A stretch of DNA of 64,000 nt, taken from NCBI GenBank assembly GCA_029339195.1, contig JAPTJF010000059.1, forward strand, positions 124,001-188,000, given 5' to 3'. The first letter of the stretch is position 1. Each line of letters opens with the position of its first letter. The stretch comes from Micractinium sp. NFX-FRZ (taxonomy: Eukaryota > Chlorophyta > Trebouxiophyceae > Chlorellales > Chlorellaceae). Below, piece by piece: positions 19,200 to 62,100 of the stretch. A model generated the notes under the pieces. That model worked only from the letters and a program-made list of their open reading frames with translations. It made no database searches and was not told the origin of the DNA. Position numbers and translations under genes: made by a program.

Positions 19200-22100
19200 T
19201 CAGGTTGACGGCTGGGCTGCACCATCGCCAGTCCTACCGCCCGCGGCCCCACTGTCCCCGCTAACGCTGCCGGCACTGTCGCTGCTGCCGCCGCCGCCGC
19301 CGCCGCCTGCCGCCTGCAGCCCGGTGCGGGCCACCAGGCCGCCGCGCGACAGCTTCCCCTGCCTATACTGCATCAGTGTGAGCCGCTGAGCTCGCTGAGC
19401 CAGGCTGGAGGGTGGGGCCTCCCGGGGTTGGCTGGCACCTGCCGCCGCTGGCGTGTCAGCTGCCCCTGCTGCCGCGCTGGGCTCAGCCTCCGCTGCAGAG
19501 CCATCGCCAGGGCTGAGAGCTGGTGGCTCCCCAGGGCCAGCCACGCCCGCCTCCTGCTGCTGCTGCTGCTCCTCCGTGGCTTGCCGCGATACACCCTGCT
19601 GCTGCTCCCCTGCGCCTGGCAACCCCTGCCGCCGCTCATGTGCGCCAGGCACACCCTGCCGCTGCACCAAACCTTGCACTTGCTGCTGCTGCCCGGTGCT
19701 GCCTGGCAGGCGCAGCCCAGCTTCCTCCAGCTTTGCCAGCATGTACTGCTGCCGCTGACCGGGCGACAGCTGGCGCCACTCGTGCTGCGGCACGCTCACG
19801 GCCTGCCAGCCCAGGCGCTGCAGGCAGGGCAGCACAGGCGAGGGCGCAACAAGGGGATGGCGTGAGGAGGCAGCATGGGCAGGTGCCGGCACGGAGACGA
19901 GGCACGCGGGCAGTGGGGGGATGCACTGCTGGACTTTCAGCCAGCGTGGGCAACATGGGAAGAGTGTGTGGGGATAGAATGGGCTGGGTGGTAGGGCAGG
20001 ATCGGCAGGGGGGCAGGCAGGAGGAGTTGAGGGGCAGTAGGGCTGCTAGGCGCGGTGCTCTGTTCCCACTGGAGCCTCCTCATGCCCACGCACGCATGCA
20101 CCGCGGCCCCCACAACCCCCACACAGCACCACACTACACCACACACCTGCAGCAGGCGGCGCTTGAGCGCTGTGCCACCCATGAGGTGGTTTGTGTTCAC
20201 GGCAAAGTGCACCGGGCCGTCAGCTTCCACTGCGGGGGGTGTCGGGAGGCGGGCGCGGTCATCACACAGCGAGTTTGGCAGGGCGGGGCATGGGGGGGAG
20301 AGGCGGGCCTGCTCTTCCCCCCCCACTTGAGTGCGCACACACTCACTGAGGCATGTGCCCACGTGATGCTCTCCCTTCTCCACACCCTGCGGCGCTCGGC
20401 TGCTTGCAGCACCCTGCTCCCATACGGCCAGGCTCACGGGTGTGCTGCCCGCTCCTCCACCCACGTCGCCACCCACCACGCGCACTCCCTTTAACGCAGA
20501 GCAGCCTGCCTGCCCACCCACCCACCTGCGATGCGCTGCTCTGGTATGGCCACATCAATGGAGTACTCCCCCGCCTCGCTGTACTCCAGCTGGCACGCCA
20601 CGCCCAGCGCACACATGCACTTGTACACCTGCGGGGGGGAAGTGCCGGTGTTGCAGTGGTGAAGGGCACATCGGTTCAGTGCTCCAGCTGGCACGGCAAT
20701 GCGCCCAGGCAGGGCAGGCCACGCCCGCAGTGCCGGCATTCTTGCGGGGAGGCAGGCGCCGGCACGCCGCACGCTGTGCCTGCTGCCCGCCCGGGTGTGT
20801 GGCCAACAGCACTGCCTTGCATCTGTGATAGGCCAACCAGGGCCACCCAGCCCAGCCCAGCCCAGGGCCCGCCCCCCCAGCCTGCTTGCTTCCTTCCTTG
20901 CTTGATTTCTTTGCCCCTTTGGTGGAGCGACAGCTGCAGGCAGGCAGGCAGGCAGGTAGGTAGGGCGGGCAGTGGGCAGGTTGGCAGCTTGCTTGCTTGC
21001 CTGCAGCTGGAAGGCTGAGACGCTGCGTGGGCCCGCCTCCTGGTGCCGTGCCCAGGCGCGCCCCGCAAACGCGCGCAGGCGGCCGGCTTGGTAGAGGGAG
21101 TCGAAGAAGGAGGCGGTCTCGGCAGGGAGGGGGCCCAGGCCTGCTGGGGGAGACGGGCGGGCACAGGCGTTGGGTAGTACTGGTGAGGTTGATGGTGGGG
21201 CGGGCTGCACGATGGCGACGCACAGGGCAGGGAACACAGCGTCGGGCATAGCACAGGGCATGGCACACACACAGCATAGGGCATGGCACAGGGCATGGCA
21301 CACAGCATAGGGCATGGCACAGGGCATGGCACACAGCATAGGGCATGGCACAGGGCAGGGCCTTCACGCACCCCACGCCCTCCCTTTCCCATCCCCCCTG
21401 CACCCGGCGGCACCTCTGCCCAGTGCGGCTGCCTGATCTTTCCTCCACTGCTTTCGGAGCACCTCTCCCCCCCTTGCCCACGCCAGCCTCCCCCGCTCAC
21501 CCGCCCCGGGCGGCGCCTCCAGCCGCAGTGCCACCTCCACCCAGTGCAGCTGGTTGAGCTCCGCCGGCTTGAAGAAGCGCTGCTCAGCACCAGCCAGCGC
21601 GCGCCAGCGGCGGATGAGCTGCACGGGACCAGCGAGTGTGGGTGGGTGGGTGGGTGGGTTGGGTGTGAGAGCAGGGTGCTTGTGTGAGAAAGACGCTGCT
21701 CCGTGCCAGCCAGCCCACCCATGGCTCACCTGGGGAGGGTGGCGCCCCGCCTCGGTCAGCCCCCAACTGCTCCGCACCTTTCACACCCATGCTAGGCAAC
21801 AAGACAACGGTATGGGTATGCAGCCCCATGCCCTCAAGTGGCCAGAGCAGCAGCCAGCCTGTGTGAGCCCCCAACCGCTCTTCAGCTCTTGCCCATTCTG
21901 GGCAACAAGATCGTGGTAAGAATGCTGCCCAAGGCTCACCTGGGGAGGGTAGCACCCCGCCACGGTGAGCCCCCACGCCACGTTGGCCAGCCCCTGGGTC
22001 GTCAGCTCATACAGCACCTCGCCCGCACGCTCAGCCAGGGCGGCCACCATCTGCGGGGGGCGGGCGTGGGTGTTAGTGCGTGCGCGGCTGGGCGGTGGCG

Positions 22101-25100
22101 TGAGGCGGCGTTTCGGTGCAAGAGTTGTGGGATAACAACAGCCATGTCCCTGGGTGGTCAGCGGTGAGGTGAGTGTGAGGCAAGCGGGCAGAGGCAGCAC
22201 GGAGCAGCAGCGGCTGTGGTGCCCACCTGGCGCTGGGTGGGGCTGTCGCAGCGGTTGGCCGATGCAAAGCTAAACACCAGCACGCTCACGGCCTGGGCGG
22301 TGAATGCGTCCCGGTCGCTGCCGCTGCTGGCGTGGCTGCCGCTCCCCCTGCGCGAGCCCTTGCCGGACCACCCCCACCGCGCATTACCGCCGCCGCTGCT
22401 GCCGCTGCTGCTGGGGGGCGCGCGCGCTGGCTGGCCCAGCATGCGCAGCACGGCGCCAGCTAGGCAGTCGTACAGCTCGGCATGGTCGTACTGCAGCGTG
22501 CTGTATGCCCACGCCAGGCTGGCGACAGCCTGTGAGGGGGCAGCATGGCACAGCAGCAAGCAAGAAGATGCGTGGGGGTTGTGGGGTGGAGGCACGGCAT
22601 GGCATACAAGGCGATGCGAGGGGGTGGGACTTGCAGGTGGCTTTATGGTCAGCGGGCAGCGGACGCCACGCAGCACGCAGCAGGGGCAGCTGCGTTGCCC
22701 ATCGAATGCCTGTCCAAATATGGAAAAATCGCGACCCCGACGCATGCTCACAGCAGGTTCAAAAAATGCTCGGCCCAAGACTGCCGACTCTGCCCATGGC
22801 CGGCGCATGCACACAGCCAGCCACATGGTGCAGCAGCAGACAGCAGCACCAACAGCACAGCAGCAGCGGGAGCCTTGTACAATACATGGGATGACCCGCC
22901 AGCTGCAGCAGCCCACCTGCACGTCCAGCTGGCGCCGCTCCTCCAGCTGTATCGCCCTGGCTGCCAGCTCGTCCAGCAGCTGAGCTGGCGGCTGCGGGCC
23001 TAGCAGGGAGGCCAGGGACCAGGCCAGCGCTGCGGGGGTGGGCGGGTGGGGGCAGGGGGAGGGCAACGGGGCGCGACGTGAGGCACAACCTGCGCTGGAG
23101 ACGCTGAACCGTCCAGCACAGCACGGAACAGCTCAATGCACTGCAGCACAGCACAGCGCAACTCAGTGCAGCACCAAAAAGCGCCATGCAGCACAGCACA
23201 GCACAGCACAGCACTGCGCCAGGCCTCCTGGCGGCGGCGCGGGCAGAGGTGCTGATGGCGTCGACGGCACGCAAGAACAGGCATCTCGCCAGACGGCAGC
23301 TGCACAGGCAGTGTAGCTCCCCACTGCACTAACACAAACACCGAGCCAAGCCAGTACAGGCAAGGCACAGCAGTGCGCACATGAGATGCCACGTGTGTCC
23401 ATGCGGCCTGCCTGTTTGCGGGCGGCGGAGGCCAGGAGGTGCACCACCTCTCGGCGGGGGCGGCAGCGCCCCGTGTGCCTCTGGATGGCCGCACGCAGCA
23501 GCAGCCGGTTCTCTGCAGGCGGGCAGGAAGGAGGGGTGCGGAAGAAGGTTGGCGGTGATGAAAGGAGCAATCTTCTGGTGCATCTACCCTGTTCTATATA
23601 ACTCGACTGTCCTGCGTGCATGCAGAGCCATGTATCCCCAGCGCCATGACTTCCAGCTCCATCCCCATCCACATGCAGAGCCACATGGATGCCCCCCGCA
23701 GCATCAGCCGGTTCCCTGCAGCCAGCCGGCGGGCAGGCAGGCAGGCAGGCCGGCGGGCCATCAGCACCCACCAAGGGGCGCGTCGTCCGGGGTGCCGCCG
23801 TAGCTGGGGGCCAGCGCCGCCTGCCAGGCCAGAGTGAACCCGCGTGCCAGTATGCACACGTCTGCATCGTTCAGCCAGAAGCCCGGCTGCTTTTGGCGGT
23901 ACCGTGCCGCCAGCTCAGCTGCCACGTCATCCATGAAGGCCGGGTCCCAGCAGCCAGAGGGCGCTGCGGAGGCCGCCCCGTCCGCCGCCCCTGCGGGTGC
24001 TGCTGCGGGTGACGGAAGCGGCGGCGGCAGCGCTGCCGCCGTCGATGTGCCGCCGCTGCTGCGTGTGTAGGGGCCTGGTGCTGCGTCTGGTGCTGTGCCT
24101 GGTGCTGCGTCTGGCTCAGCATGCGCAGCGGGCACAGCAGGGGTGAGCTCCTGTGCCAGCAGGACGTGCGTCATGCTCTGCACGCTGAGATCTCCCAGGC
24201 CGCGGTGCCGCAGCAGCGCCGTGCCGCGCAGCAGCAGAGCCGGCGGCAGCACTCCCATTGAGGCGAGGCTCCACAGCAGCAGGCACAGGCTACGCCCGCT
24301 GCACGCCCCCAGGCTGATTCCACTCGCTCTGCTGGCCCTGCTGCTGCTGCTGCTGCTGGCGTCGTCATCGCTGCTGCTGCTTTCGCCGTCGCTGATAGTG
24401 CCAGGCGCTGGCAGCGGCTGCGCCTGCTGTGCTGCCACAGGCGGCCCCTGTGCCGCGTGCCCGCCAGCCTCGCCGCTGCCACCCACGCCCCGCTCCCCAT
24501 CGCTTGCCGCCAGCAGCGCAGCCACCATTCCATCCAGCAAGGCGGGTGCTGGACGTCCCAGCTTGACCACAGCATACACCAGCATGACGGCTGCATCCAT
24601 GCTGCCAACATGCAGCGGCGGCTGACGTGGCCACGGGCGTTCCGCCTGCTCGCCGCCGCCGCCGCTGCTGTCGTCGCTGTCGCTGCCGCTGTCGCTGCCG
24701 GTGCTGCCGGGGTGCTCAGCGCTGCCGGGGGCCGCCACCACAGCCTTGCCCAGCCGCCCATAGATCCGGTCAATGAGGGTCACACTGCCGTGGCCCAGCT
24801 GTGCATGTGCCCACAGGACCTGGGCGGCCTGCAGATCTGCCAGCTCAGCGGTGTGCCCCTCCAGCCTGGCAGCCAGCGCGGCAGCCGCGGGGTGCCGCCG
24901 CAGCAGGCCGCGCTGCGCGGCGGGGCGCCGCATCGCGTGCTGCAGGGGCGGGGAAGGGCAAGTGAGGGAGAGGTGTGCAGGGGGAGGTGGATGGTGGGAC
25001 GCTGCTGTGCAGGCTGTGCTGTGCAAAAGGTTTGTGCTAGGGGGGGAGGGGCCACTGCACAACCTCTGCCTCCACCGCCCTGCTGCCCACCGCCCGGGAG

Positions 25101-25779: not shown

Positions 25780-26242
25780 GAGCTCAGACTTCCAGCAGGG
25801 TCGGCTGGGTGTAGCCAAGGATGTGGTGGTGTGAAGGGGCGGCGTGGCGCGATGTAAAGTCCGGCGCGATGTAAAGTCCGGCGGGGTGCTTGGGAACGTC
25901 CTCAGAAGTTGTGAGGTCGTTGTGAGTAGTGCGTAGTTGTCAAAAACTAAGTCCAAGTGCAGAACGGAGGTCGTCAGGCCATTTCATGCGCTGCGTGCTG
26001 GGCATGCGGCCGCCGGAGGGCTTTTCCTGTGGGCCACCGGCTTTTGTGATGGTTTCCACCAATCACTGCACGCATCTTAGGTGAAGGTTTCGCTAGATAC
26101 CGCCAAAAGGCGCCGCTCTTTCTGTCTGTGCCCCTCGGCTGCTGCCTCCCACACTGCGCCAGCTGCTCCTCTTTTGCCATTAAAACGCCGACACTGCCAC
26201 TCATTGTGCACCCCGGCGGTCAGCACCTAACCGGCGCAGACA
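25780..26242. promoter_or_regulatory. Divergent promoter region between OPR/RAP and carrier genes
   Basis: These 463 bp separate two start codons that face away from each other, so both promoters must lie here or in the 5' UTRs. Visible elements are a perfect 17-bp direct repeat (25846-25879), which contains TGTAAA, and a CCAAT pentamer at 26059-26063, 180 nt before the carrier ATG. No clear TATA box is seen on either side. Confidence 0.5.
25846..25879. repeat. Perfect 17-bp tandem direct repeat in the divergent promoter
   Basis: Two abutting identical copies of GGCGCGATGTAAAGTCC, about 67-100 nt upstream of the OPR/RAP start codon. Position and exactness suggest a regulatory site or 5' UTR element, but this is inference. 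Confidence 0.8.
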
Positions 26243-29200
26243 ATGGCCGCTGCCAGTGCCACGCCGCCGCCGCCTGTGTGGCACTCGCTGGTGGCAGGCG
26301 GCGCCTCTGCCGTCTGCTCGCGCCTGGTGACCTGTAAGCTGCAAGCAACAGTCGCGGATCACTGACATGCACCTGCCGCAGCCATTTCTGTGCCCTTAGC
26401 CCGGGCGAGGAGCCAGGCCCTGCTGCGACACTGCGCCTCCGTCTGCTCTGCTGCCGGCCTCGCCACCCCGACACCTCCTCCCGCCCCCGCCTCACCCACC
26501 CACCCACCCACCACCCTTGGGGGCCCCACACGCGCAGACCCTCCCGACACCGTCAAGGCGCGGCTGCAGGTGCAGGGTGCAGCAGGCGCAGGAGGGACGG
26601 TGTACCGAGGCACTGTCGACGCTTTTGCACAGATCGCGGCCCGCGAGGTGGGTGCTGGCTGGGCCTTATGCAGCCTGGGTGGGGCAGGTGTGGGGCTGGC
26701 TGGCACGCACCCACTGCAGTGCACCGCGGCCTGCACGCAGCGCGACTGTGCAGGGGCACGGTGGGGTTGCGGCGGGCAGGCAGGGGGGCAGGAGGGATGC
26801 CAGCGGGCGCAATGCAGCATGGCCCTGGCCCCGCCCCCCCGGCCGGCTGTGCAGAGTTGAAGGTTGCACAGGCGTGCCGCCGGCACTCTGAACACGAAAC
26901 ACGGAGCTGGGGAACACGCCGGCGTCGGCATGTCGGGCCCCTGCCGCGCCTGCGCACTGTGCCGCCGCCGCCCGCAGCATCCAAGTCGTGCACCGTGCCC
27001 GCCCCTCTCCCCACCCGCGCGGGGCAATCCAAAATAGACATCTCCAAAACACTCCAATCATACTGACTGGATCCTGGGGGAGCTGAAACCCACCCCACCA
27101 CCCCCACGTGGCTGCTGCCTCCGCAGGGGCTGCCTGGGTTCTACCGCGGCTTTGGCGGCATCCTGCTCACCGTCATCCCAGCCAACATGTCCTACTTTAG
27201 GTGGAAGGGGCGGGGGCGGGGGGCGGGGGGCAGGAGCCGGCCATGGACAGAAGGCCCGACTGCTCTGCTTTGTTGTGGTCGTGTGCCGCTGCTGCTGCAG
27301 CGGGGGCAGCATGGGGGCAGGTGCAGCGTGTGTTTCTTGCACTATTTTCTCAGCGCATCATGCCTCTCTGTTGCTGCCCCACGTGAGGTTGGTAATCACA
27401 ATCGCAAAACCAATGTGTGCCCCCTGCCCCCACCTGCTCCGCCCTGCAGCGGCTACGAGCTGGGCAAGCGGCTGGCCCCCAAGAATGCCGGCATGCTGGG
27501 GGACCTGACCGCCGCCACGATTGCGCAGGCGGGTGGCGCAGGGGCGGGGAGCGAGTGGCGGGGTGGTGGTGGGGGGTGGCGGGGCAGGATGCCGGGGGGG
27601 AATTGAAGGGCAGGGTGGCTGGGATGCAGGGGGGAGTTGAAGGGCAGGGAGGGAGGCAGGGTGGGGACTGTTGTGGTGCTGGTGGGCACCACGCTCCGCC
27701 CCATGTGCACTCGGCCCTGTCCCGTCTGCACCCCCGCATCCCGCTGCCCCGGTCCGCTGTCCTGCAGACGGTAGCGGGCGTCACCCCGCGTCCCACTGCC
27801 ATTCACAAAAAATGCGGTGCGCCTGCTGTTCCCTTCCACTGCAGACGATAGCAAGCGTCGCCTCTGCTTGCCCCATTGATGCCATCACACAGTGTCGGTT
27901 CCTGCCCCGCTCCACGCCACCTGCAGACGATAGCGGGCGTCGCCTCTGCTTGCCCCACTGATGCCATCACACAGCATCGGTTCCTACCCCGCTCCTCCCC
28001 ACCTGCAGACGATAGCGGGCGTCGCCTTCTGCCCCATCGACATCATCAAGCAGCGGGTGCAGACGCAGGCAGTGCTGGCGGGGGCGGGGGCTGCCGCCGC
28101 CAGTCCCTTGATGGCGGTGCGGGAGGTGTACGCGGCGGCGGGGGTGCCAGGTGGGCTGGCAGCGGGCTGGCCTGGGTGGGTGGGTGGGTGGGCTGCTGGC
28201 GACGGGCACTGGGGGCTGGGTGCCGTCGTTGGGCTGGGCTGGCAGATTTACATCACTCACATCCGCGCTGCTCCCCCTCTGCTCTTGTTCTGCCCTCCCC
28301 TCCTCCCTGCTCTATCCCCCGCTCCGCCCCTTTCCCTCACACCACTTGACCTCCCCCCTACACACACCACTCTCCCCCCCCCTGCCTGCCAGGCTTCTTC
28401 AAGGGCTTCCTCACCATGAACGCCCTCTGGCTTCCCTGGAACTGCATCTACCTCCCCCTCTACGAGGCAGCCAAGCGGCGCATCTGCTACTGGCAGCTGG
28501 GCAGGCTGCGGGCACAGGGGGGCGGGCTAGCCCAGGTCACGCGGGTAAGACATGAGGGGAGTGTGGAGGGCACAGGAGGGGGAGTGGGGGCGCAGGGAGG
28601 CGGGCAAAGAGGCGGGCGGCACAGGGAGGGGCGCAGGCGGGCGAGTCGTTTGTCGTCGTCATGGTGGAGGGGTGCAGTGGGCTGGCCAGCCCTGGCTGCC
28701 CCCGTGGCACCCCTCACCCCTCAGCGCACCCCTTTTTGCACCCACCACTGTTGGTCCCCCGCCGTCGCTCCTTCCTCCCACCTCCCCCCCTGCCCTTACC
28801 CACTCTTTTCCCCCCAGATGAACAATCTTCCAACCTCCAACCCATGCCGCTTGTGCTCCGCCCCGCCCCCATCTGCTGCCAGCAGGACGGCGACGGTCAG
28901 CTGATAGTGCAGGACCCGTCCATGCAGCAAGTGCTGCCCATCTGGAGCTTCCCCCTCTGCTCCGCCCTCTGCTCCGCCACCGCCTCCGTGGCGACGCACC
29001 CCATAGACGTCGTCAAGACGCGCCTGCAAGTGCTGTCCAATCGCGGCGGCAACCGCGGCGGCGGCGCGGCGGCGGCAGAGCAGGCGACGCAGCAGCGGCT
29101 CACGGCCTGGCAGGTGCGGCGGTATGCCTGGGTGGGGCCGCGCTGGCTGCCGCTGTGTAGACTGGGATCTACGGCACCCTGCGAGCCCGCCCCCAGCCCG

Positions 29201-35639: not shown

Positions 35640-38600
35640 ATGGGAGTAGGAATAACCCATGAGCTGGGCAGCAAAAGGGGCGGCCCGGCTTCTGCTACCG
35701 TCACAGCGGCGGCGGCACTGGAGGCTGCCACCGCTGAGGCAGGCGGGTGCACTGCGGCAGACCGCCACGCCCGCCTGCTGGCGTCTGCAGAGCGCAAGAT
35801 CCACTGGCGTGTGCTGCCCCTGCTGTCCCTGCTATCTATCATCTGCTACCTGGATCGTGCCAACCTCAGCTTTGCATCAGGTGGGCGCAGGGGGCCGGCG
35901 GGGGGCACACGGCGTCGGGCGGGTGGAAGAGGCGCCAGGAGGCGCCAGAGCGCCTCAGGGTGGCGGCCCGCGGTGCAGTGGCATGGCGGCGTGGAGGTCA
36001 TGGGGGGTCGGGCGAGCCGCAGTGCCTCGTCTCCCGGCGACCTCGGGGCAACGCCAAGCGGCCCCAGCCCCCCGGATGCGTGCCCACCCGCAGCGCCTGC
36101 CGCCCGCCTCCATCCCCTGCCCCCCGGTCTACTACTACCCATGGATTGCTGACAATGAATGCGCAGCAAAACCCTGACCCCTACTACCCGTCCCTCTCCT
36201 GCTGCAGTGTCAATGAACCAAGACCTGGGGTTCAGCACTGCCACATATGGCCTAGGCTCAGGCCTCTTCTTCCTCACCTACTCGCTCTTCCAGGTGTGCC
36301 CTGCTGTGCTGTGCTGTGCTGTGCTGTGCTGTGCTGTGCTGTGCTGTGCTGTGCTGTGCTGTGCTGTTGCGGTGCGGTGCTGTGTCATGCTGTGCTGCGC
36401 TGTGTTGGCCTCTTCCTCCTCGGCTCCTTGCACCTCAGGTGCTGGTGTGGCTCGCTGTGCTGTCGCCGTGACACTCTTAACCTGTGTGCCGTGCTGTGCT
36501 GTGTTGTCGTGCATTGCTCTGTGATGTGGTGCCTCTTCCCCTCCCTCGCACATCCCCAGCACCGTGGCCACCGCCCCCAGACCTGCGGCCTGCCGTGCTG
36601 TGGCCTGCTGCATATCCGCTGGCGTGTCTTGCTGTGACCCCACGCTGTGCTGTGCTGTGCTGTGCTGTGCTGCCCTCCCCTCCCCCCCAGATCCCCAGCA
36701 ACATGGCCATCGCCAGGGTGGGCGCCCCCCTATGGCTTTCCATCATCTGCCTGGCATGGGGCCTCATCGCCGGCTGCTTCGCCGCCATCAACTCCGAAGC
36801 CAGCTTCCTCGTGCTGCGCACGCTGCTGGGCGTAGCCGAGGTGGGCGGCGGGTTGCGGGGGGCCATGGCGGGCACGGGTGGGATGGGTGGCCGTGGCCTG
36901 TGTGTGAATGGCAGATGATGGGATCCCGGCTGAGATGGCGGCAGCACACCAGACGGCGGTGGCAGGGGACTGGGCCGGCCACCAGCATCAGAGAGGCAGG
37001 GCAATTGTCTCAAGTGGGGCGGCGGGGCGGCCCCCCAACCCCCACCTCTCACGCCCCTTGCGCACGAGGAACTGCGTGACCATCGCCGCCTTGCTTGACA
37101 CTAAATCGCCCTGTGGCGCTGCCCCCACGCCGGCCGCTGCAGGCGGGGGCGCTGCCCGGCATGTGGCTCTACGTCTCCCTCTTCTACCTGCCCAGCCGCA
37201 GCACCATCCCCATGACTTTTGTGATGGCGGGCATCACCGTGGCACAGGCATGCCGGACTTCCGGGCTTCCGGGCTGCATGTTTGCATGTGCAAGTTACTA
37301 GTCCATGCAATGCATACACTTGCCGTGCTATTGCTCGCCGCCCCATGGCGAGCGTGCATGCGGCGCCGTGCCGCCAAGCTGAGCGTGCGTGCGCTGCCGG
37401 GCGCTGTGCTGTGCAGCTGCCTGCCCAGCCGCCTTCCCCGCCCTACAACACGTATGCCTGCCTCGTGTCCAACCTGCCCGCCCACCCTGCAGGTGGTTGG
37501 AGCCCCTCTGGCTGCCGGCTTCCTGGCTCTGCACGTGAGCACCCCTGCATGCTGTGCTGTGCTGTGCTGTGCTGTGGGTGCGCTGTGCCCGGAGCCAGGT
37601 CGCACGCGGTGGCTGCGGCGCGCTCTGGCCCGCTGCGCCCAGCCTGCCTCAACCCCTGCGTCGTCGCTGCACCGTGCCGCCAGGGTAGCACTACATGCTG
37701 TCAGCGGCTGCCGCACCTGCACCGACCTCCCTCCCACATCTCCATCTTTCCACCGCTGCTGTGCAGGGCGTGGCAGGGATGGCTGGCTGGCGCTGGCTGT
37801 TCCTGCTGGAGGGAATCCCCGCTGTGCTGCTGGGCTCTGTGCTGTGGTGAGCCCAGCAGGGCGGAGCGGGCCTGCTGGCCCAGGCAGGCACACGCACATG
37901 CACCTCGCCGTGCAGAGGAGGGGAAGAGGCATGCTGTGCGTGCTGCAGGGCGGGGCAGCTCCAAAATCAACATCTGGCTTCTTTGGGCGCAACAGCAAAT
38001 GCCGACTAGCCCATTCCTGCTCCCCACGTGCGTTCTCTGCCTGCCCTCCCACCACGCCTTGCAGGCTCGTCCTGCCGCCCAGCCTCGCCGCCGCTCGCTT
38101 CCTGACACCCGAAGAGCACCTGGCCATGCAGCAGGAGATGGCTCGAGAGCACCGGCAGGGCGGGGCAGCGGCAGGGGCAGAGGTGGAGGCAGCAGCGGTG
38201 GGAGAGGGTCAGCTGGCAGCTTGCGCAAGCTCTGCCACCAAGGCATATGATAAGCCTGCAGCCATGGCGAGTCACGGCAGCCGGGCGTTGGAAGCTCTGG
38301 AGAGCCAGCTGCCAGCCAAGGGAGGCTGCGGCAGCAGCACCAACAGTGGAAACAGCAGAAGCAGCAGCAGCGCGGCAGAGGCAGCAGAGGCGGAGCAAGG
38401 CGGCGGCGGGGAGCAAGGCGGCGGCAAGGAGCAAGGCGGCGGCGGGGAAGAGTGTGGGCAGCTGCAGCAGCCCGCACACGAGCGCCGGACACTGGCCCAG
38501 GACTGGGCCTCCCTCCTGCTGGCAGCGCGCTGCCCGCTGGTGTGGTGCGCCGGCGCCTGGCGCTGCCTCTACGCAATGTGCCTGTACGGGCTGCAGGTGG

Positions 38601-41125: not shown

Positions 41126-41180
41126 GCGGTGTGCAAAATAAGTAGCGGCAGGCCCGGTGCATGCAATTTAAGAGTGGCAC

Positions 41181-41185
41181 TGTAA
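41181..41185 (+). terminator. Candidate poly(A) signal TGTAA for the MFS gene
   Basis: TGTAA, 130 nt past the stop codon at 41051. Confidence 0.55.
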
Positions 41186-44500: not shown

Positions 44501-47271
44501 CCCTCCCCCGCAGACCCCTTTAGCTTCCTGGTGGTTATGACGGAGCGGCACCCCTTCCTGGGCAAGATTGTGACGGGGCGGGTGCACAGCGGCAGCGTGG
44601 CGCTGGGGGACCGCCTCAAGGTGCTGTGGAAGGACGGTGAGCCCGGTGGTGGGGGTGAGCACTGTGCTGTTTAAACAAAATGACCACTGTGCTGTTTAAA
44701 CAAAATGACCACTGTGCTGTTCGTTTAAAAAACGAGGGAGGGGGTTGTGTTTGAGGCGCCACTGCGTGCTGTGCAAAGCGTGCTGGAATGTGTGCCACGC
44801 TGGGCATGCCATGCCGTGGTGTCCGGGTGGCGGGGGCGGGGTGTTCAGGGTGCCCATGCCCTGCTGAGCATGCTGTGCCGCTACGACTACGTCGTGCCGT
44901 GCTCAGCATGCTGTGCCACGCTGTGGTGTGCAGGTGGCGAGGACTTGGGGTTCAAGGTAACCAAGCTCATGAAGCGCAGCGGCACAGGCACAGGTGGGCC
45001 GCGGTGGGGGTGCCAGCGGGCCTGTTTGGGGCCAGGAGGGTCAGTGGTACCATCCCCTTGGACAAGGCAGCCGGTGCCGCCAGCTGTGATGGGCCGCGCT
45101 CGTGCCCCAGCCAAGCGCCCAGCAGCAGGGGGCTCCCGGCAGGCCAGCGAGCAAACCGTCCCGCTCCCACCGTCCAACTTCACACCCTTCCTTGCCCTGG
45201 CCGGTGCCGTTTGCTGATTGCAGTGGAGGTGGAGCGCTCGGTGGCGGGAGACATTGTGTCCATTGCGGGCGTGGCGGCTGCCGGCATCGCGGACACGGTT
45301 GCGGCGCTAGAAGTGCAGGCGGCGTTGCACCCAGGTGGGTGCGCCCGACTGCGCTTGGCCTGTTGGCTGGGCTGTGTGGCAACGCAAGGTGACACCGGAT
45401 GCACGGCCCTGCCCCTGGCACCTTCTCTCCCGACACCTCCTCTGCCCCCTCCCCTCCCCATATGTCCCCTCCCAATCCCCCACCTCCCTCAGGCCACATC
45501 CCACCCACCCATGCTCCCATCCCGCCTGTCACGTTCTGCCTCCCAGTCTATACCTCCCTCACTACCCCCACCCCCCATCCCCCGCAGGCCAGATCGACCC
45601 CCCCACCCTCTCCATGGTGTTCTCCCCCAACACCTCCCCCCTGGCGGGGCGCGAGGGCAGCCAGCTGACGGGAACCAAAATCGGGGAGCGGCTGGCGGCG
45701 GAGGCGGAGACCAATGTGTCGCTGCGGGTGATGCCGGTGGAGGGCAGCGGCGGGGAGTCGTTCGAGGTGCAGGCGCGGGGGGAGCTGCAGCTGGGGCTGC
45801 TCATAGGTGAGGCGGGGGAGGGGAGGGAGGGAGGGGGGGCAGGAAGGAAGGAGGGGTGGAAGGGGAAGTCAGGAAGGAAGGGAAAATGAAGGAAGAAGGA
45901 AGGAAAGAAAGCATGGTGCGACAGTTGCAGGAGGGGTGGGAGTGGGGGTGGGGGTGGTGTGTGTGTTGCGGGGAGGGGATGGGCGCACGCTGCGCGGGCT
46001 GTGTTGGGGGCTGCTTGGTTGGTGAGTGCGGTGGAGCAGGGGGGCGCTGGATGCGTGGGCAGGGTGTTGGGGGACCTGACACCCTTGCCTGCCTGCCCCC
46101 CCGGCCCGCCCGTCTGCCTCCCAGCTCGCAACCCCTCCTGTGTGCTTGCCTCCTTGCCCGCCCTACCCTGCCCTACGCCCGCCCGCCCCTGCAGAGAACA
46201 TGCGGCGCGAGGGGTTTGAGCTGTCTGTTTCCCCCCCTAAGGTGGTCCTGCGCTACGAGAACGGTGAGGCGGGCACGCATGTGCCGGTACTTGTGTGGGT
46301 GCTTGCGGTAGCAGCAGCAGCAGCAGGGGGAGGGTGGTGAGCGCCAGCGCCGGCGGCAGGGAGCCAGGGAAGGGGCGTGACCGCATGGCAGCGCCTGGTG
46401 GCACCCCTGCAGCCGGGGCCTGCCCGCCCGCCTGCCTGCCTGCCCGCCTGCCTCAGCTTCTTCCACAATGTGCATGGGTTTTGCAAGCTCACTGTGCAAC
46501 AAACAGACGACGTTGGGCAAGGTGTGCCCAAGGCTGCTTGCTCTGCGTTTGCTCCCCCCCGCCCCCCCCCCCCCCCTGCAGGGCAGCGGCAGGAGCCTCT
46601 GGAGGAGTTGGTGTGCGAGGTGGAGGACGGGCATGCGGGAGAGGTGATCGAGGCGGTGACGTTGCGCAAGGGGGAGGTGCGGGGGCTGGGAGGGTGGGTG
46701 TGGTGGTGGGGTGTGGTGGTGGTGACAGGGGGAGGGTTGGGAAGTGTCGGAATTCTAACGGGGGGGAGGTGCGGGGGCTGCATGTGTGTGGTGGGGGGAA
46801 GGGCAGGGTTGGGACGTGACGAAATTCCACAAGGTGCGGACGAGGGTTCTGGGGAGCAGTTTGGGGTGGGGGCGTAGCGGAAGAGGGTGGGGCGGCTGGG
46901 CGGCAGCGGTGCGCAGCTGCTGAGAGGTAGACTCGTTGTGCCCTCCTTTCTCATTCATTTTTTGCAGCTCCGGGGGATGCAGGCGCTCAGGGCTGAGGGC
47001 AAGAGCCTTGTGACTCCTAACTCCCGCCCCGGCTGCCCCTGTGCCCTCCCTTCTTTTTGGGTTTTGCAGCTGCAAGAGATGCAGCCTCTGGAGACGGAAG
47101 GCAAGCAGCGGCTGGTGTTTGAGGCCCCCTCCCGCGGCCTCATCGGCTTCCGCTCCTCCTTTGCAGCCATCACGCGAGGCACGGGCCTGCTGCACCGCGC
47201 CTTTGCACGGTGGGTACGCCCGCCAGCATCGAGGGCTGCAGGGGCATGGAGGCTGGGGGGCGCTGCGGGGG

Positions 47272-47303
<32 letters not shown>

Positions 47304-50912: not shown

Positions 50913-53900
50913 ATGAGGCACGTCGTAGCAGCCGCCGCGGCCCTAGCGGTCATGGTTGCGCTTTGCACAACGCCAGCAGCGGTCGCGCGCCAGCTCACGC
51001 AAGGAGGCGGTGGCCCCGCCGACCCTGCTCTGGGCAGCGATGCTACGATCGTTGGTAGGTTTGTCACAGGGGACGATGGTGCGGGGCGGCCCCCGCTCAC
51101 CCTTCACCTTGCTGCGGCGGCGGCTGGGCGGCGCCGACCCCGCCATCTGCCGCACCCCCCGTAGAGAAACCCTTCAGGCTTTACCCACCCCCTGCGCTGC
51201 AGGAAGCACCGTCATCATAGCACGTGACTATGCCTTGACTTCAAAGAAGAAGAGCGACAGGTGTGGGACAGCAAGGGGGAGGGCAGCAGCCTGCGCCGCG
51301 GCAGACGGGTCTGCGCCCGCCTGGCGGGCGCGCAGTCTCCCGGCGCGTGCCGGCACAGCGGCCTGCCCCCGCCGCACCCACGCCTTGGGCTGCCATTTAT
51401 CCCTCCCACGCCATCAAGCCCTCCCCCGCAGTCCTGCCTTCAAATCCCGCTCCTCCATCAAGCCCTCCCGCCCTGCCCCCCCCCCCTCCCCTCCCCTCCC
51501 CGCAGGCTCCTGCTGATCCGCACCCGCGGCCCCGGCGGCAGCGGCGGCAGCACCATCCAAGTCAAGAATGTGCCTGCCTCCGTGCTGCTCACGCTGCGGT
51601 CGGGGCTGGTGGCCAACGTGACTGGAGAGGTGGAGGAGGTGGAGGAGGGCGGGCAGCCGGCGGACGACAGCGGCCAGAGGGTGGGGGCCAAGGGCAGCGG
51701 GGACGGCATTTGGTGGCTGCGCCGACGGGTCATCAAGACGCTCAAGTACAAGGGCATGACCGTGAGGGCACCCATCAGCGCACCGCCCACAGAAGTGCTG
51801 GCAGGTGGGTGGGGGGGCGGGTGAGGGGGGTGGGAGCGGGGGGTGGGGGCAGGTGGGGGCAGGATGAGAAGGGCAGGGGGCAGGCCAGTGGCAGGCAGGC
51901 AAGCTGGTGCGGGCAGGGGGCGCGGCGGCGTGCTGTGACACGGCGCCAGCACGGCTGGGGCAGCGTGGCGCCCGCTCGGCCAGCCGCCCCGTTGGACGCA
52001 GAGCCGCCTGCGCAATTGCGCCCGGCTGCACGCCTCTCACGCGAGGCCCCCGCGCCCTGCCCCCCCCCCTCCAGGCGTGGTTGCGTTTGAAGAGCCGAGG
52101 CACCCCAGGCGGGCCCCTGCATCCCCACATTCTTGCCATGTATGCTGCGTCTCCCAACTTGCTGCCACCACCCCTTGTGTTGACTTGATGCGCAGTCGCG
52201 CCCGAGGAGGCTGAGGCGCCCTGGGTGGACCCCGCCGCTCCCACGCCCCGCTCCACCGCCAGGGCTGGGCGCAGGCTGGAAGCGGTCAACATGACGGCAC
52301 TCAACCCGGTCGTTGTCTCCTCAATGCCCCTGGTGTCGCCCGAGCTCAAAGTGCTGGTGGTGCCCAGTGAGTGGGGCAGGGTGGTGTTGCATTGTGCACT
52401 GGCGGCGTTGCATTGTTGCCCCCGAGCTCAGAGTGCTGGTGGTGCCCAGTGTGCGGAGCAGGGTGCAGCGGGGTGTGGCATCGTGCAATGTGCAAACCCT
52501 GCACAATCCAGTCCGGCCCCTGAGAGTGCAGCGCAACAAGAGCATGCACTCCCTTCCCTCCCCCGGCCCTGCCCGTGCGCGCACCCCCCACCCCTCGCCG
52601 CCCACACTCAAGGCCGCGGCCCCTGCCCTTTGCACCTCATGACAACCCTTCCCCCGCCCCCTGCCCCTCACCTGCTCCCCTCCCACTCCAGTCGCGGCCG
52701 TGGCGCCCAACGGCGCTGCCTGCCCCGGCACCGCCCTGCCCACCCTCACCCGCCTGCAGCTGCGCAGGACCATGTTTCGGGAGCTGGACCCAACGGGATA
52801 CACTGGTGAGTGCGCGCCTTGCACCTGGGACAAACAGGGTCTTTTGTCTTTCAATAGAAATAGCCCTGATTTACCCTTCGGGGGGCAGGCCCCACCCTCA
52901 GTGCACAGTTGTGTGTTCCGGGCCTGCAGCACTCGCCCGCCCTGGCTGCCTTGCCCGGTGCATGCTCGACATGCAGGGCAGCCCTGTCCCGCCCGGGAAC
53001 CAAGGGCCCCGGCTTAGCGCACAGCAGGGGTGGTGGGCGCGCACGGGCATCGGGAGGCGGGGGTGCATCGGGGGGTGGATTCTGCAAGGTTGCGTACCAG
53101 TGTGGGGCTGGAGGCGTGCAGGAGCGGGGGACGCAGGGAAGGCAAGGGCAGCTTGCTGTGCCGCAGCATGGCGACCGCAGCGTGCAGAGCGCCCTGCCGC
53201 CCCGCCCCACCCCCTTCTCAGCCTCGCTCCCCCCTCCCTTCCCCCCTCCCTCTGTGGTTGGGTGCAGTGGGTGCCACCTACCAAAAGTGTTCCCTGGGCC
53301 GCACAATCATCCGGGAGCCAGGCAGCCAGGTGGCGGAGCGAGTCAACATCCCCTGCTCCGGCACCAAGTGAGGCTGCTGCAGCCGCTGCTGCTGCTCTGG
53401 TCACGGCCCAGGAATGCCCCTCAGCTGGGATGGCATGCAGGCGGGGTCCATTGGGAGCTGCAAGCTGCCGCCGTCGCAGCCGCTGCCTGCGCTGCGCTGC
53501 CGGAGGAAGTGTGCCAGCTGGCGGCCGGCGATGTGCTGCTGGGGAAGGCGTGCTGGGTGCTCGCCCGTGAGCCGCTGCCATGTTGCAACAGTCGGGCACA
53601 CTGCAGCTGCAGCGCTCATGATTCATCAGTGCGCCTTGCGTCTCCCTTCTCCCGCCTGCACCCTGGCCGCCTGCGCTGGGGGCGTGCACCCCAACCCTGC
53701 CTGCTCCTGCCCTGCTGCCAGGCTAACACAGTTTCCTGCTGCTGCCCGCCCGCCCGCCTGCCCGCCCACGCACGCACCTTGCAGCGGCGGCGTCGCCTGG
53801 ACCTTCTCCAAGTGTGATTACGACGACATGGATGGGTATGCCAACGCAGCGGAGGAGGCGCTGGTGGCGCGCGGCGTCAACACCACGGCATTCAGATACA

Positions 53901-56803
53901 AGTGGGTGGGGGGGAGGGCAGCGGGCACCGGGGACGGCGCCTCGGTTGTTGCTGATGAGCGACAGGTGTCACCTCTATGTCCCCAACCCCGCTTGCACCC
54001 CCGTGTCACATGCCCCTCCCCCCCGCTCATGCCCAACTTAAACCCAGAGCTCAACCTCCCTGCTCCTTTCCCTCCACGCACCAACAACAACACCCTCCGC
54101 ACACACCCACACAACAACAAGCACCCCCCACCCACACACACCATCCCCCCCCCCCTCCCGCAGGGTGTTCCTGGTGCCCAAGAGTGCCTGCGACTTTGTG
54201 GGCACCGCTTTCGTGGGGTGCGACGGCCCCCAGAACTGCCGCTCCTGGATCAACCACGGCTTCTGGGAGAGGTGCGCCCCGTGCTTCTATGAAAGTGGAA
54301 TGTGGGGCTGTAAACGCCCACCCTGGCCCACCCTGCTCGGCTGTCATCCCCACCCCCACCCCCACCCCCAACGCCAAGCAATGCAACTGGTGAAGCAGTC
54401 ACACAGCTGGCAGTCACGAGCTGGCAGTTCACGGCAGATGTTGTGACCGACTGAGCCCCATCACACCTCACTGCTCCCTCCATCACACCTCATTTCTCCC
54501 GCCCATCACACCTCACTGCTCCCTCCATCACACCTCGATTCTCCCCCCCCCATCACCCGGTGCAGCGAGCAGGCCATCAGCCACGAGGTGGGGCACAACC
54601 TGTTCCTGGGCCACTCCGGCTCCGTCAACACGGCGGGGGCATACGTGGATTGTGAGGGGGCGGGGTGCTGGTGCGCTGCGCTGGCCTGCGTACGGGGCGT
54701 GCTGCTGCGTACGTCTGTGGGGGGTGGGGGCGCGGCAGCGGTGAGTCGGGAGTGCGCGGAGCGGGTACCTGCTGTGTGTGTGTGTGTGCACGCAGGCAGG
54801 CAGTGCGAGGGGGATTTGGAAAGAGGGGGAGGGGGGCGCGACCGGGGGCAGGCGGCTGGCCGAAGGTGCCGTTGTGAGGAGCTGCACGTGTGGCGCACCC
54901 GGAGTAGGGCCCTGCCTGCGCCCGCTGTTGGAGTGCCACTGCCTGGCCCATGCCCCTCCCCTCCCCAAGCTGACCTCGCCCCCCCAACCTGCTCTGCCCT
55001 GCTGCGCCCCGCTCTGTGCAGACGCCGATGACACCAGCATGGTGAGGCGCAGCTGTGCTTCGTGCTGACGTGTCAGCAGAGCGCTGATCGGCACTCTGCT
55101 GGCCTGTGCAAGAATGGGTGATTGCCTGCCTGCCTGCCTGCGTGGCTTGGCTGGCTGGCTGGCATGGCTGCCAGCAGTGCTGTGTGGTGGGCTCCCTCGA
55201 GCCATGCTGCCCCTGATACCCTCCCCCACCCCACCCCACCCCCTGGAACATGGCATGCCCCCCGCAGATGGGCTTCTGCTGCGCCAACCGCTGCCCCAAC
55301 GCGCCGCTGGCCTGGCAGCTGGGCTGGACCTCCCACGTCCTGCTCAACGCCACCAACCTGGCGCCCGGCCAGACCTACAACCTCACCCTGGCCTCCCCAG
55401 CCCTCTACTACCGCTCCGGCGTGCTCATCCGGCCCACATGGGTGGTTGGCGGAGCGGAGCCTATCTATGTGTCCTTCCGCACCAGGCACAACGGGGATAC
55501 GCAGATGGCGGAGGCGGCGGCCAACAAGGTGGGCCCACCAACCCTCCCGCCCCTGCCCTTGCATGCATACTCCCCTTTTTGATCCATGCAGCTGTAGTCA
55601 AACACATGCCCTGCGACTGCTGCTCAGGCATGGGCGCCGGCCGCCTCACCGGGCAGGTAGCAGCCTGCAGTAGCGGCCTGCGGGTAGCGGCCTGCTACCA
55701 GCCCGGTGAGGCGGCCGGCGCGCATGCCTGCTGAGCGGACCACCCTCCGCCCCTCCGGCCTCTCCACCCCTCTGTGCACGCACACACGCGCGCCAGCCGG
55801 CCACCGATGGGGCGATGCTTGGCAGGGCAGCCTCAGCAGGTGCACGCCGTGCCCCAATCGCGTGCTGCGCCTCGCCTGTGACAGCCCCATGCACTCCATG
55901 CACCCTGCATTGCTGCGCCCCGCCCCTCCCTCCACCTTCACAGGTTCATGTGTACACGTCGTCCATCGCCAACGCGCTCGACCCACAGATCACCGTGCTG
56001 TGGAAGAGCCTGGGAGGTGGGCCCCCCGCCCTGCTGGCACGTGCTACAGTTGGTTGCCCGGATGCGGCCGGTGGGCGGAGTGCCGGCCGCTGAGTGGTGT
56101 TCTTCATGCCCACAGTGCCCCGGCACAACACTTGGGATGGCCTAGCCTCACCTCACGGGCCCGCCGCTCCAGCCGGCCCACCCGCCCGCTCACCCCGCGT
56201 GCTTGCCCCCGCCACCCCGCCATCTTACCCCCGCCTTGCCTTGCCCTGCCTTGCTGCCCGGCCCCCCTGCAGTCAACCAGGCGTACGGGGTGACCGTGCC
56301 GACGGGCATCACCATTCGCCGCTTTGCCAGCAACAACCCGGCGCTGGCGGTGGTCACCATCTGCCGGCGTGGCGGTGCAGAGACCCAGGCCAGCTGCCTG
56401 GCGGGGAGGGACAACAACTGCGACGGCAGGGCAGGTGGGGCGGGCAGGCAGGCAGCAGCTGGGGTGCAGAGGTGCATACAAGGTGTACGCTGCCAGGCGG
56501 TGTCGAGCAGCAGCCTGCGGTGGCAGGGCGCGCTGTGGGCTGCCGTGCTGGTTGGAGCCTGCCCCAGCTGGTTGTGTGTGATGCGCGGTACGTGAGGGTG
56601 GGTGCTGTGGCAGAAGCAAGCAAGGGGGCAAGGGGGCATGCAGGTCCAGCCTGGCAGCCTTCTGATGGGAGCCAGGGTGTGCCCAGGTGGCATTGCTCGT
56701 GACCACAGCATGCCTGCCCCCCGCCTGCCCCCCTGCCTGTGCAGGCTCCGACGACCCCCAGTGTGCCACCTGGCTGGTCAAGAGGGTCAAGCGCATGCGG
56801 TGA
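50913..56803 (+). CDS. Peptidase M11 (gametolysin-type) metallopeptidase, copy 1
   Basis: Secreted zinc protease of the gametolysin family, which in volvocine algae digests cell-wall or matrix glycoproteins. Fourteen exons (50913-51054, 51203-51260, 51506-51804, 52196-52366, 52692-52805, 53268-53367, 53785-53901, 54164-54271, 54566-54651, 55022-55041, 55268-55528, 55944-56016, 56273-56434, 56745-56803) give 589 residues. A signal peptide (HVVAAAAALAVMVALCTTP) and a propeptide-like region precede the catalytic part. The zinc site is HEVGHNLFLGH (376-386): the HExxH form rather than the QExxH of Chlamydomonas gametolysin, and with Phe where metzincins usually have Gly. The Met-turn is at Met405/406, followed by GFCCANRCPNAPLAWQLGW, typical of M11. 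Exon 10 is only 20 nt. The C-terminal part has a further Cys-bearing domain. The tandem paralog starts at 59162. Confidence 0.88.
55621..55738. repeat. Long inverted repeat (hairpin) in an M11 intron
   Basis: The arms 55621-55668 and 55687-55738 are reverse complements over about 45 bp with few mismatches (shared core GCGCCGGCCGCCTCACCGGG), separated by about 18 nt. It lies wholly in the intron 55529-55943 of M11 gene 1. It could be a miniature inverted-repeat element or a source of a folded intronic RNA. Confidence 0.85.
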
Positions 56804-59161: not shown

Positions 59162-62100
59162 ATGGTTCGCAGCAGTCTAGCGGCCCTCGCAGTTGCCCTG
59201 GTGGCTCTGTGCGCTGTGGCAGCACCCGCGGCTGCAGCCCGCAGGCTGCAGCAGACGCCTGGCACCTACATCGTGGGCAAGAACGTCACCCTTACTGGTG
59301 AGACCGGTTCGGAGTGACCGCTGGCGGTCGGGGTGGGGTCAGCTTCCCCCTTCTGGCTCCTCCCTCCCACTCCGGTCCACTCGGCCGACCCTCCCCTCCC
59401 TCCCGCTTGCAGGCCAAGCAATCGTGATCAGCGCGGATCTGCTGTTCAGGAGGAGCGACAAGTGAGAGCGGAAGGGTTTGGGGGGAAGGGGCCGAGAGAG
59501 CAGCTTGGCGGCCGGCGGCGGTGTGCCGTGCGCAGCTTCCGCCGTGCATGCACAGCTGCTGCGCCAGCTCCGCCGCCCCGCTCAGGCCCCGCCCGCCCAC
59601 CCCACCATCCCCTCTCCGCCCCAACAACCATGCACACTGCTGTTGCTGCACACTGCTGTTGCTGCGCACTGCGCCCTCTGCCTCGCGCCAATTGCGCGCC
59701 GCTCTGCCTGCTCATGCCATCACCCGCCCCGCCACGGCCCCCTGCCAGACTGACCGGCCGGCAACCGACCACCAGCGCTCCTCCTGCCGCCTCACCTCAT
59801 TACCACCTTCCCTCCACACCTTCTCACCCCGCCTCGGCGTATCCAGCTGCTTACGCACCTCCCCGTACCCCTTCCCCCCCTGCCGCCGCCCCCAGTCACA
59901 ACGCAACCCGTCTCGCCCCGCCCCCCCGTGCCCCCCATGTGCAGGATGCTGATCCTGCGCTGGAAGTCGCGCAACCTGCATGTGCGGGGCGTGTCCCGCC
60001 AGGCCATCGACGAACTGCAGTCGGGCCAGCTCATCACGGTCACAGGGGAGGTGCTGGAGGTGAGCTAAATGCCTGCCCGCCTGGCTCGCTTGCTTTGATT
60101 GTGAGGTGGATTGCTGGGGAGAGGCGAGGCGGGTACCCCGTCGGCCCAGCTCCCCTTTGCTTCCTGCCGAGCGGGTGCTGGTGAGCGGGCCAGTACTGGA
60201 CAGCCACTGCCTGTGCTGACACCCCCTGAATTCCTGCATGCTGTGCCTTTGATGGCTGGTCAGCTGACTTTGGCTGCCTGCTGCCCCTGGCGATGCTTCA
60301 CATTCACACGCCACAGCTGTGCTCCACTCAGCCACCCTCACCCTCCTCACCATTACATCCATCCTGCCCCCCCTCCCCCACCCCCGTCCCCCCATGTGTA
60401 TGACAAACACCCGCAGGTGAGCGATGAAGAGGTCGAGCTGCCTGTTGACGATGGGCTGGGGGATGATCCCTCCAACAGCACCTCCAACGGCAGCAACGGC
60501 AATGGGCAGGGCAACGCGTTCGGCAACGGCAACGGCAACGGCGGGAAGGGGAGTGGAGGGGTGATGAGGGGGCTGCGCGTTAAGTCGATGCGGGCGCACA
60601 AGATCAGCAAGCGGAACAACAAGAAGAAGGGGCCCGAGGAGGTCACCGTGGGTGCGTGGCGGGTGTGGGGTGGAGGGGATGGGTGGGTGGGTGGGTGGGG
60701 AGCAGGGGCTGGGCAGGTGCCGGAGGGGCAGCGCGGAGTGCATGCAGCAGAAGGCCAGCCAGCGAGGCAGGGGCAGAGAGGTGTGGTGCTGGCAGGTGCG
60801 CGCAAGCACCCAGCAAAGGGGGCCTGGGGCTGCTGCCGCTCGCTTCGCTTGCACCCGCCCTGCCCGACCCCACCGCCAGCCATACTCGTATCATGCCATC
60901 CTGAAATTACGCCGCTTGTCCCGCCGTGTCCCGCCCTGTCCCGCCCTCTGTGTGAACCGTTCACCCACCCACGTGCCGCCACTGCCCAATAGCGCCCTGC
61001 CCTCAAGAGCCGCTGCTCTCCCATCTCTCCTCCTCTGTCCTCGCTCCTCCTCACCTCTGCCCACCTCCCCCCGGCAACCCCCACCCCCCCTGCAGCCCCC
61101 TTCACCCCCGACAACGACGACCTGCCCACCGTGCCTTACCCGCCGGAGCTGCAGCGCAGCCGCCGCCGCCTGCAGGCCATCCGCTTCGCTTCCGTCCCCA
61201 TGGCCGCATGGACCACGCTGCCCAGCATCAACCCGGAGCTCAGCGTGCTGGTGGTGCCCAGTGGGTGGGGCAGGGTGCAGTGGGGTGTTGCATTGGCCGC
61301 TGTAGTGTTGCATTGCTCCCCCCAAGCCCAGCGTGCTGGGCGTGCCCAATGAGCGCCGGGCTGCGTCCGTACCCCGTACTCCCGGTCATTGGCATACGTG
61401 CTGGGGCTCTGCCTTGTATGGCCCTGTGGTTGACCTGAGCCAGAGCTCAGCGTGCTTGCCGTGCACAGGGACTGGCCAGGCAACTGCATGTTGTGTGCGT
61501 GGCGGGTCGAGGGTGTGGCAGGTTGAGGGGCAGGCACTTCTGCGGCCCGGTTGGTCAATGCCCAACCAGTGTAGCCAGCGCAGTGGGGAGGGGGTGGGGT
61601 GCGAGTAGTGGAGGTGGCCAGCCAGGTCGGGCACCGGTTCCCACTGCTGACAGCGCCCCCCTCCGCTCACCGCCGCCCTCCCCTGCCCTCTTGATCCCCC
61701 ACCCTTCACCCCCTGCAGTTGCGGGCGTGGTGCCCGGCAGCTCCCCCGCAGCCGCCTGCCCCAACACCACCCTGCCCGCCATCGGGCGCAACCCGCTGCG
61801 CGCCACCATGTTCCAGGAGGTGAATGCCAGGGGCCCAACCGTCGGGTCCACCTACGCCGACTGCTCCTTCAACCGCACGCTGGTGCGGGAGCCGACCTCC
61901 CAGGTGGCGGGCCAGGTCAACCTCCCCTGCTCCGGCACCTAGTGAGTTGCTTGGCTGGCAGCACACTTGATGCTGCACAGGGGGAAGGGTCAGATGTGTG
62001 GTAGTACACCCTGCTGCTGCTGCCCGACCCTCATGCGCCTGCATCCCTCCCGCTCAGCTCCGCTCCGCTCCCCCTACCACCTCTGCCCTCCTGTCCCCAT

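Follow-up and report, generated by a model that had tools for sequence, protein, structure and literature searches.

Diverged copies of exon edges in the introns of Micractinium sp. NFX-FRZ, and tandem duplication across existing splice junctions as their probable source

How do introns come to carry worn copies of the edges of the exons that adjoin them? The question is raised by a stretch of 64,000 nucleotides (nt) from the green alga Micractinium sp. NFX-FRZ (positions 124001-188000 of contig JAPTJF010000059.1, or C59, from an assembly of 66.07 Mb in 838 contigs; G+C of the stretch 64-71%), referred to below as the window. In unrelated genes of the window (an OPR/RAP-type gene, a carrier, an MFS gene, TypA and both of two M11 genes) a first-pass annotation had reported introns containing a diverged copy of the start of the next exon with its acceptor, or of the end of the previous exon with its donor. 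These copies, here termed echoes, are real: at an alignment score of at least 70 they are found at 10-12% of exon edges, compared with 0.5-1.6% in four matched controls. The explanation favoured here, to which a probability of about 65% is assigned, is that the echoes were left by small local tandem duplications crossing splice junctions that already existed.

Frequency of echoes and their controls

Echoes were surveyed in the window and a further 240 kb (200 kb from ten other contigs and 40 kb from one more), using a splice-aware gene finder trained on TypA, which had been built by hand from its reading frame and conserved protein (19 exons), and afterwards on its own predictions over the same DNA. 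The final models recover 19/19 TypA exons and hold 428 introns, with a median length of 276.5 nt. The TypA protein is 90% identical over 623 amino acids to its nearest orthologue (P0001), with one single-residue gap, a homology that supports the exon edges of the gene, and is most similar to the proteins of Micractinium tetrahymenae, Chlorella variabilis and Chlorella vulgaris (87% each). The finder accepts only GT donors and fused both M11 genes into one, so that some introns are wrong. Pfam confirms the M11 gametolysin peptidase, mitochondrial carrier (Mito_carr) and MFS genes of the window; the OPR/RAP-type gene, which takes its name from the first-pass annotation, has only a sub-threshold match to FAST_1. 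In the introns of the window and of the sampled loci (L002-L025), branch-point-like CTCAC/CTGAC motifs are most frequent 30-60 nt before the acceptor.

Each exon edge (45 nt of exon alone) served as a query against introns in which simple repeats had been masked, by Smith-Waterman alignment at +5/-5. At a score of at least 70, echoes of the exon start were found for 48/406 acceptors and echoes of the exon end for 46/409 donors; the counts fall to 32/406 and 33/409 at a score of at least 80, and to 19 and 16 at a score of at least 100. At least one echo is present in 87/428 introns at the first of these thresholds and in 59/428 at the second, meaning that roughly one intron in every five to seven contains a worn copy of its own neighbouring exon edge. 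The detailed analyses below concern the 65 echoes scoring at least 80, those at 70-79 being left out.

The controls were counted on slightly earlier gene models (17/19 TypA exons), for which the true values at a score of at least 70 are 50/435 acceptors and 46/437 donors. At the same score, matches fell to 3/435 and 3/437 with reverse-complemented queries, to 18/2175 and 18/2185 in randomly chosen introns, to 3/421 and 6/423 in other introns of the gene concerned, and to 2/381 and 6/381 in the intron at the opposite, or wrong, end of the exon. The wrong-side control indicates that an echo of an exon start sits in the preceding intron, not the following one. Copies in inverted orientation, and with them antisense pairing elements, can be set aside, as the reverse-complement rate is that of the background, and introner-like elements shared between introns are made unlikely by exon-edge queries matching random introns at only 0.8%. 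At a score of 60, the controls reach 3-6% compared with a true rate of 16-17%, and single weak cases may therefore be due to chance, in line with the earlier reservation that chance might account for weak cases, not for strong ones.

The spacing first put at about 70-210 nt proves to have a 10-90% range of 91-200 nt and a median of 117 nt, and the identity, put at about 70-93%, was measured at 71-96%. The window itself lies below average, with echoes scoring at least 80 in 10/113 predicted introns compared with 59/428 overall. In TypA, 5/36 edges are echoed at a score of at least 70, compared with 7/544 comparisons with other TypA introns; only 1/36 is echoed at a score of at least 80, and most TypA cases are therefore of the weak kind.

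Anatomy of the copies and their proposed origin

When 30-nt segments were slid across the junction, those at -10..+20 were echoed most often (39/395 acceptors, 35/380 donors). At +50 into the exon the rate was that of the background (1/296 and 0/283), and from -30 outwards into the intron it was 1-4%, compared with 0-2% for the same segments against other introns. The profiles are alike at donors and acceptors. The copied exon part measures 22-79 nt (median 38, 5-95% range 24-58) and exceeds 60 nt in 3/65 echoes and 64 nt in 1/65, from echoed exons with a median length of 132 nt, three quarters of which are longer than 100 nt; in one case (C3 2938-2986) a 48-nt exon is copied whole. Its length shows no correlation with the offset between copy and original (Spearman -0.06). 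Offsets fall at 78-173 nt in 57/65 echoes, and the remaining eight at 196-292 nt, seven of them (196-236) near double the common spacing.

In many cases the copy does not end at the splice site. Homology on the intron side, beyond the echo itself, was detected in 25/65 echoes (p<=0.05 relative to the flanks of other introns), comprising 12/19 of those with an exon identity of at least 0.85 and 13/46 of the rest; echoes where it was not detected are either eroded or free-standing. The alignments show whole units, in which intron tail, pyrimidine tract, CAG and exon start are followed directly by the next unit, and some echoes sit in arrays of at least three units with a single period. The description of the copies as free-standing is consequently not a general one: many are members of a duplicated unit or array, and several of high identity are without intron-side homology. 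The 19 pairs with the least divergence show more differences in the intron part than in the exon part, both in substitutions (24% versus 16%, 1.5x) and in gap openings (5.4 versus 2.3 per 100 sites, 2.4x), although three of the 19 rows are trivial self-alignments, which lower the intron figure; a ratio of about 2 is expected where one exon copy is constrained and the other free. Furthermore, echo-bearing introns are longer than others (median 349 versus 268 nt, P=2e-8), with echoes in 0/25 introns shorter than 150 nt and in 10/14 introns of 500-700 nt. Longer introns also provide more target for echoes.

The copies and their sidedness, the intron-side homology in a good share of cases, the arrays in some, the greater intron length and a decay without codon-position signal (below) are direct observations, around which the favoured explanation would be built as follows. 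Tandem duplications of units of about 80-140 nt would occur locally in the genome, and a unit spanning a junction would double the splice site along with the signals on its intron side and roughly 20-60 nt of the exon. Only splicing at the copy that adjoins the rest of the exon would leave the protein intact, so that this copy would remain in use, whereas the outer one, a piece of exon together with a second AG or GT, would join the lengthened intron and decay freely. The near absence of exon parts over about 60 nt would reflect survivorship, an outer copy with more exon context competing too well and being removed. Duplication would likewise be the cause of those echoes that now have no detectable intron-side homology.

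The proposal of a local duplication process at splice junctions is supported by the controls, the junction-centred profile and the intron-side homology, as well as by the same orientation and proximity of the copies (the direct and reverse-complement counts above). The objection raised alongside it, that tandem duplication predicts copies at the ends of the intron, holds for intron gain from AGGT sites and fails for duplication across an existing junction, which leaves the outer copy, complete with an AG or GT, in the middle of the intron. The further view that the process is ongoing is at best weakly supported: exon identity reaches at least 95% in only 4/65 echoes, below what a constant rate would give (an upper quartile identity of 0.95 in the simulation with ages 0-0.35; see below), though collapse of fresh repeats during assembly could cause such a shortage.

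Untargeted duplication and its rivals

Several points weigh against the favoured explanation. Gene models other than TypA are ab initio predictions of the finder developed here. Intron-side homology is missing from several echoes of high identity (C9 10931, p=0.99; window 21940, p=0.98; window 40113, p=0.92; C1 9123, p=0.91), those at C9 10931 and C1 9123 being short and solitary. Random placement of 219 pairs of local direct duplicates would put 37 at exon edges, 42 between intron sites and 52 in intergenic DNA, compared with 78, 50 and 19 seen (without repeated rows, 70, 41 and 16 of 192 pairs). A neutral simulation with uniform placement, in which the constrained exon copy was modelled and the outcome depends on the assumed duplication ages, predicts 6.2 (ages 0-0.35) or 4.3 (0.08-0.30) interior windows per echo at a score of at least 80, where 0.80 are seen, and 3.6 or 1.1 at a score of at least 110, where 0.09 are seen. 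Ages of 0.12-0.32, which fit the observed identities best, narrow the mismatch to 1.4-2.5x (1.71 versus 0.80, 0.23 versus 0.09, and a ratio of intron-intron to edge pairs of 0.82 versus 0.59). Junction echoes are therefore at least 1.4-2.5 times commoner than in the best-fitting uniform neutral model, a residue that may come from unmodelled features of introns or from some preference for junctions, and even this agreement requires young duplications to be almost lacking. Finally, the simulation predicts 206 detectable echoes with an exon part over 60 nt beside 192 with one of 22-60 nt, where only 1/65 exceeds 64 nt, a near absence that calls for some additional filter or for a targeted process. 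A pure detection bias was rejected, ages of 0-0.6, 0-0.35 and 0.08-0.30 missing the data several-fold to about forty-fold.

As a separate observation, local direct duplications in predicted intergenic DNA amount to about one third of the random expectation (19 versus 52; window and loci L002-L021).

As for the limit near 60 nt, a need to include the branch point was rejected as its sole cause: even if 50 nt is reserved for it at acceptors and 10 nt at donors, an exon part above 64 nt would have fitted in 37 events and occurs in none of them (log10 probability about -7), and if 40 nt is reserved at donors, 28 such events give a log10 probability of -3.7. Nor are long echoes hidden among the predicted exons: 22/428 pairs of neighbouring exons resemble each other, and in the six whose offsets are echo-like (96-220) the match covers only 21-37 nt. 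The equal limit at donors and acceptors fits a reading of exon context better than a branch-point need. However, a preference of breakpoints for the vicinity of junctions would give, in a single genome, the same limit as survivorship.

Such a preference is the substance of the strongest rival, which is nevertheless considered unlikely: that duplication is targeted to junctions, for example through breaks or nicks at structures linked to transcription or splicing, or through template switching close to the junction, with the exon breakpoint within about 60 nt of it. It would account for the excess of echoes, which is much greater over models with young duplications than over the best uniform one, for the scarcity of exon parts above about 60 nt and for the likeness of the donor and acceptor profiles. 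It also agrees with the contrast among strict windows (a score of at least 110 over 36 nt), which match at 15/367 and 14/350 junctions (29/717 together), at 8/1658 positions in intron interiors (control 2/1658), at 0/425 exon positions (+60..96) and at 0/1933 intergenic ones, in an uncorrected comparison. Most of this contrast diminishes when the ages are matched and constraint on one exon copy is included in the model; moreover, intron-internal duplications exist too (41/192 pairs after removal of repeats), and no breakpoint signature has been established. A particular form of targeting, slightly more doubtful again, would make the junctions of this algal lineage hotspots at which a DNA lesion coupled to splicing or transcription, or an RNA-templated step, inserts into the adjacent intron a copy of the segment centred on the junction (the intron flank and exon sequence of up to about 60 nt); introns would then lengthen outwards from their ends and accumulate strong decoy sites.

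Far less probable is the idea, also put forward in the first-pass annotation, that echoes are selected decoy or alternative splice sites which regulate splicing. Where the dinucleotide survives within 2 nt, the sites are indeed strong by position weight matrix, 14/19 AG and 10/22 GT lying above the 25th percentile of true sites, a level passed by 2.1% and 3.8% of intronic AG and GT overall, and accidental splicing at them is plausible from their sequence; this strength is inherited, however, from the copied site. AG or GT is kept at the mapped place in only 18/32 acceptor and 19/33 donor echoes (37/65), no more than neutral decay would leave at about 81% identity. A codon-position bias among the mismatches of the 65 echoes was sought and not found (111/759, 135/760 and 117/758, or 0.146, 0.178 and 0.154; P=0.22), and 31/37 indels are not multiples of three and thus break the frame. 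With no codon-position signal and no preferential keeping of AG/GT, there is therefore no sign of function.

Marginally less probable even than selected decoys is the possibility that echoes are alternative or duplicated exons which the gene models missed. The finder did call a few of them as exons of 27-48 nt (C9 2301, C10 16974 and 17970, C3 2842 and 2938), but the copied part ends inside the exon, TypA has no extra segments relative to its nearest orthologue, and the mismatches, being indifferent to codon position, led to the rejection of coding or alternative-exon echoes. Least probable of all is chance matching in GC-rich, low-complexity introns, which the control rates at a score of 60 might favour and which the four controls at a score of 70, with simple repeats masked, refute as a general explanation.

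Known systems and the echoes of the window

In tandem exon duplication and mutually exclusive exons, an exon copy with its splice site lies beside the exon; unlike these, echoes copy only a 22-79-nt edge and are without coding constraint. Minisatellite arrays are built of repeated units of one period, which those echoes in arrays of at least three units resemble, except that here the units cross junctions and the copies are strongly diverged. Paired nicks give rise to duplications in plants. Small tandem duplications are attributed to fill-in at DNA breaks by Pol alpha-primase/CST (PMC8355091); both mechanisms are a plausible source of short tandem units, and neither is linked to splice junctions. 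Intron gain by tandem duplication is known (PMC2891723 and PMC3488318), with cases in Drosophila (PMC2891723) and in the potato RdRp gene (PMC4974935). As with the echoes, a local tandem copy of exonic sequence with splice motifs is involved and one copy is intronised. In intron gain, however, a new intron of unit length appears inside an exon, whereas here an existing junction is doubled and the intron grows; the offset (median 117 nt) is far below the intron length (median 349 nt), and among the 65 echoes an offset equal to the length of the echo's own intron, as expected of AGGT intron gain, was found in 0/65 (offsets 78-292 nt, introns 163-758 nt). Introner elements (PMC3488318) are likewise recurrent sequence events in algal introns; they share sequence between introns, whereas echoes match their own adjoining exon. 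Volvox and Chlamydomonas are argued to splice mainly by intron definition in one study (PMC4378016), and cassette exons in Chlamydomonas are put at a plant-like 22% in another (PMC2397502). A search of the open-licence literature showed no earlier description of duplicated, intronised junctions as a pattern across a whole genome.

If the favoured explanation is true, about one intron in five to seven records a past junction duplication, a natural experiment in splice-site choice, the gene having come through a competition between two almost identical sites. The rarity of exon copies beyond about 60 nt could then measure the exon context read by the spliceosome, at donors and acceptors alike, and duplication across junctions would be a concrete route by which introns lengthen and gain strong cryptic sites.

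The echoes of the window are given below by gene, with matches over aligned length as fractions.

OPR/RAP-type gene and neighbouring reverse-strand edges
20682..20711, reverse strand: echo of acceptor edge 20584-20611; 26/31, offset 100, score 89
21690..21721, reverse strand: weak OPR/RAP echo of acceptor edge 21575-21606, intron 21619-21939; 26/33, offset 115, score 77
21730..21765, reverse strand: OPR/RAP donor echo; 32/36, offset 210; repeat families D15 and D18
21833-21873, reverse strand: weaker middle copy; spacings of 108 and 102, giving three units
21940..21975, reverse strand: OPR/RAP donor edge, predicted intron 21619-21939
23680..23714, reverse strand: echo of acceptor edge 23477-23511; 30/36, offset 203, score 102

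Mitochondrial carrier
27761..28002, forward strand: copies of the acceptor unit, at 27761, 27839 and 27921; families D12 and D14
27927-27974, forward strand: nearest acceptor echo; 36/48
28009..28053, forward strand: acceptor edge (exon start); Pfam Mito_carr

MFS gene
36407..36436, forward strand: echo of donor edge 36261-36290, in the same intron as the next; 23/30, offset 146
36552..36575, forward strand: echo of acceptor edge 36691-36714; 21/24, offset 139
40288..40308, forward strand: echo of donor edge 40092-40112; 20/21, offset 196; intron-side homology not found (p=0.92)

TypA
42291..42313, forward strand: weak echo of acceptor edge 42459-42482; 20/24, offset 168, score 71
44420..44447, forward strand: echo of exon 44531-44558; 23/28, offset 111, score 90
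44827..44870, forward strand: weak echo of acceptor edge 44934-44978; 31/45, offset 107, score 76
46936..47012, forward strand: diverged copy of intron tail and exon start 47039-47117; exon part 32/48, whole-unit score 139

M11 genes
52414..52448, forward strand: gene 1, echo of donor edge 52331-52366; 32/36, offset 83; homology extends on the intron side (p=0.010)
56489..56529, forward strand: gene 1, echo of donor edge 56393-56432; 30/41, offset 96
61320..61348, forward strand: gene 2, echo of donor edge 61232-61260; 24/29, offset 88; further copy at 61440; family D5

The OPR/RAP array belongs to family D15, with copies at 21725, 21833 and 21935, of which the middle one is still visible, and in the carrier two units of 82 nt, starting at 27839 and at 27921, are 90% alike from end to end. 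The TypA copy at 46936..47012 is absent from the score-66 list of exon-only echoes. The same donor is echoed in both of the neighbouring M11 (gametolysin-type) genes (50912-63491); the gene 1 echo is closer to gene 2 (53/60 over exon end plus intron head) than to the corresponding sequence of its own gene (48/60), which suggests that it is older than a change in the intron head of gene 1.

Three further features of these introns may be mentioned. The carrier intron before the echoed exon has a probable GC donor at 27521-27540 (GCGCAG|GCGGGT), judging by how well the protein continues from that point; the GT-only finder chose 27682 instead. A TypA intron contains three 25-nt tandem units at 44656-44730 (TGACCACTGTGCTGTTTAAACAAAA), A+T-rich unlike their surroundings, and an M11 intron contains, at 55640-55730, a long GC-rich inverted repeat with arms of about 40 nt as judged by eye.

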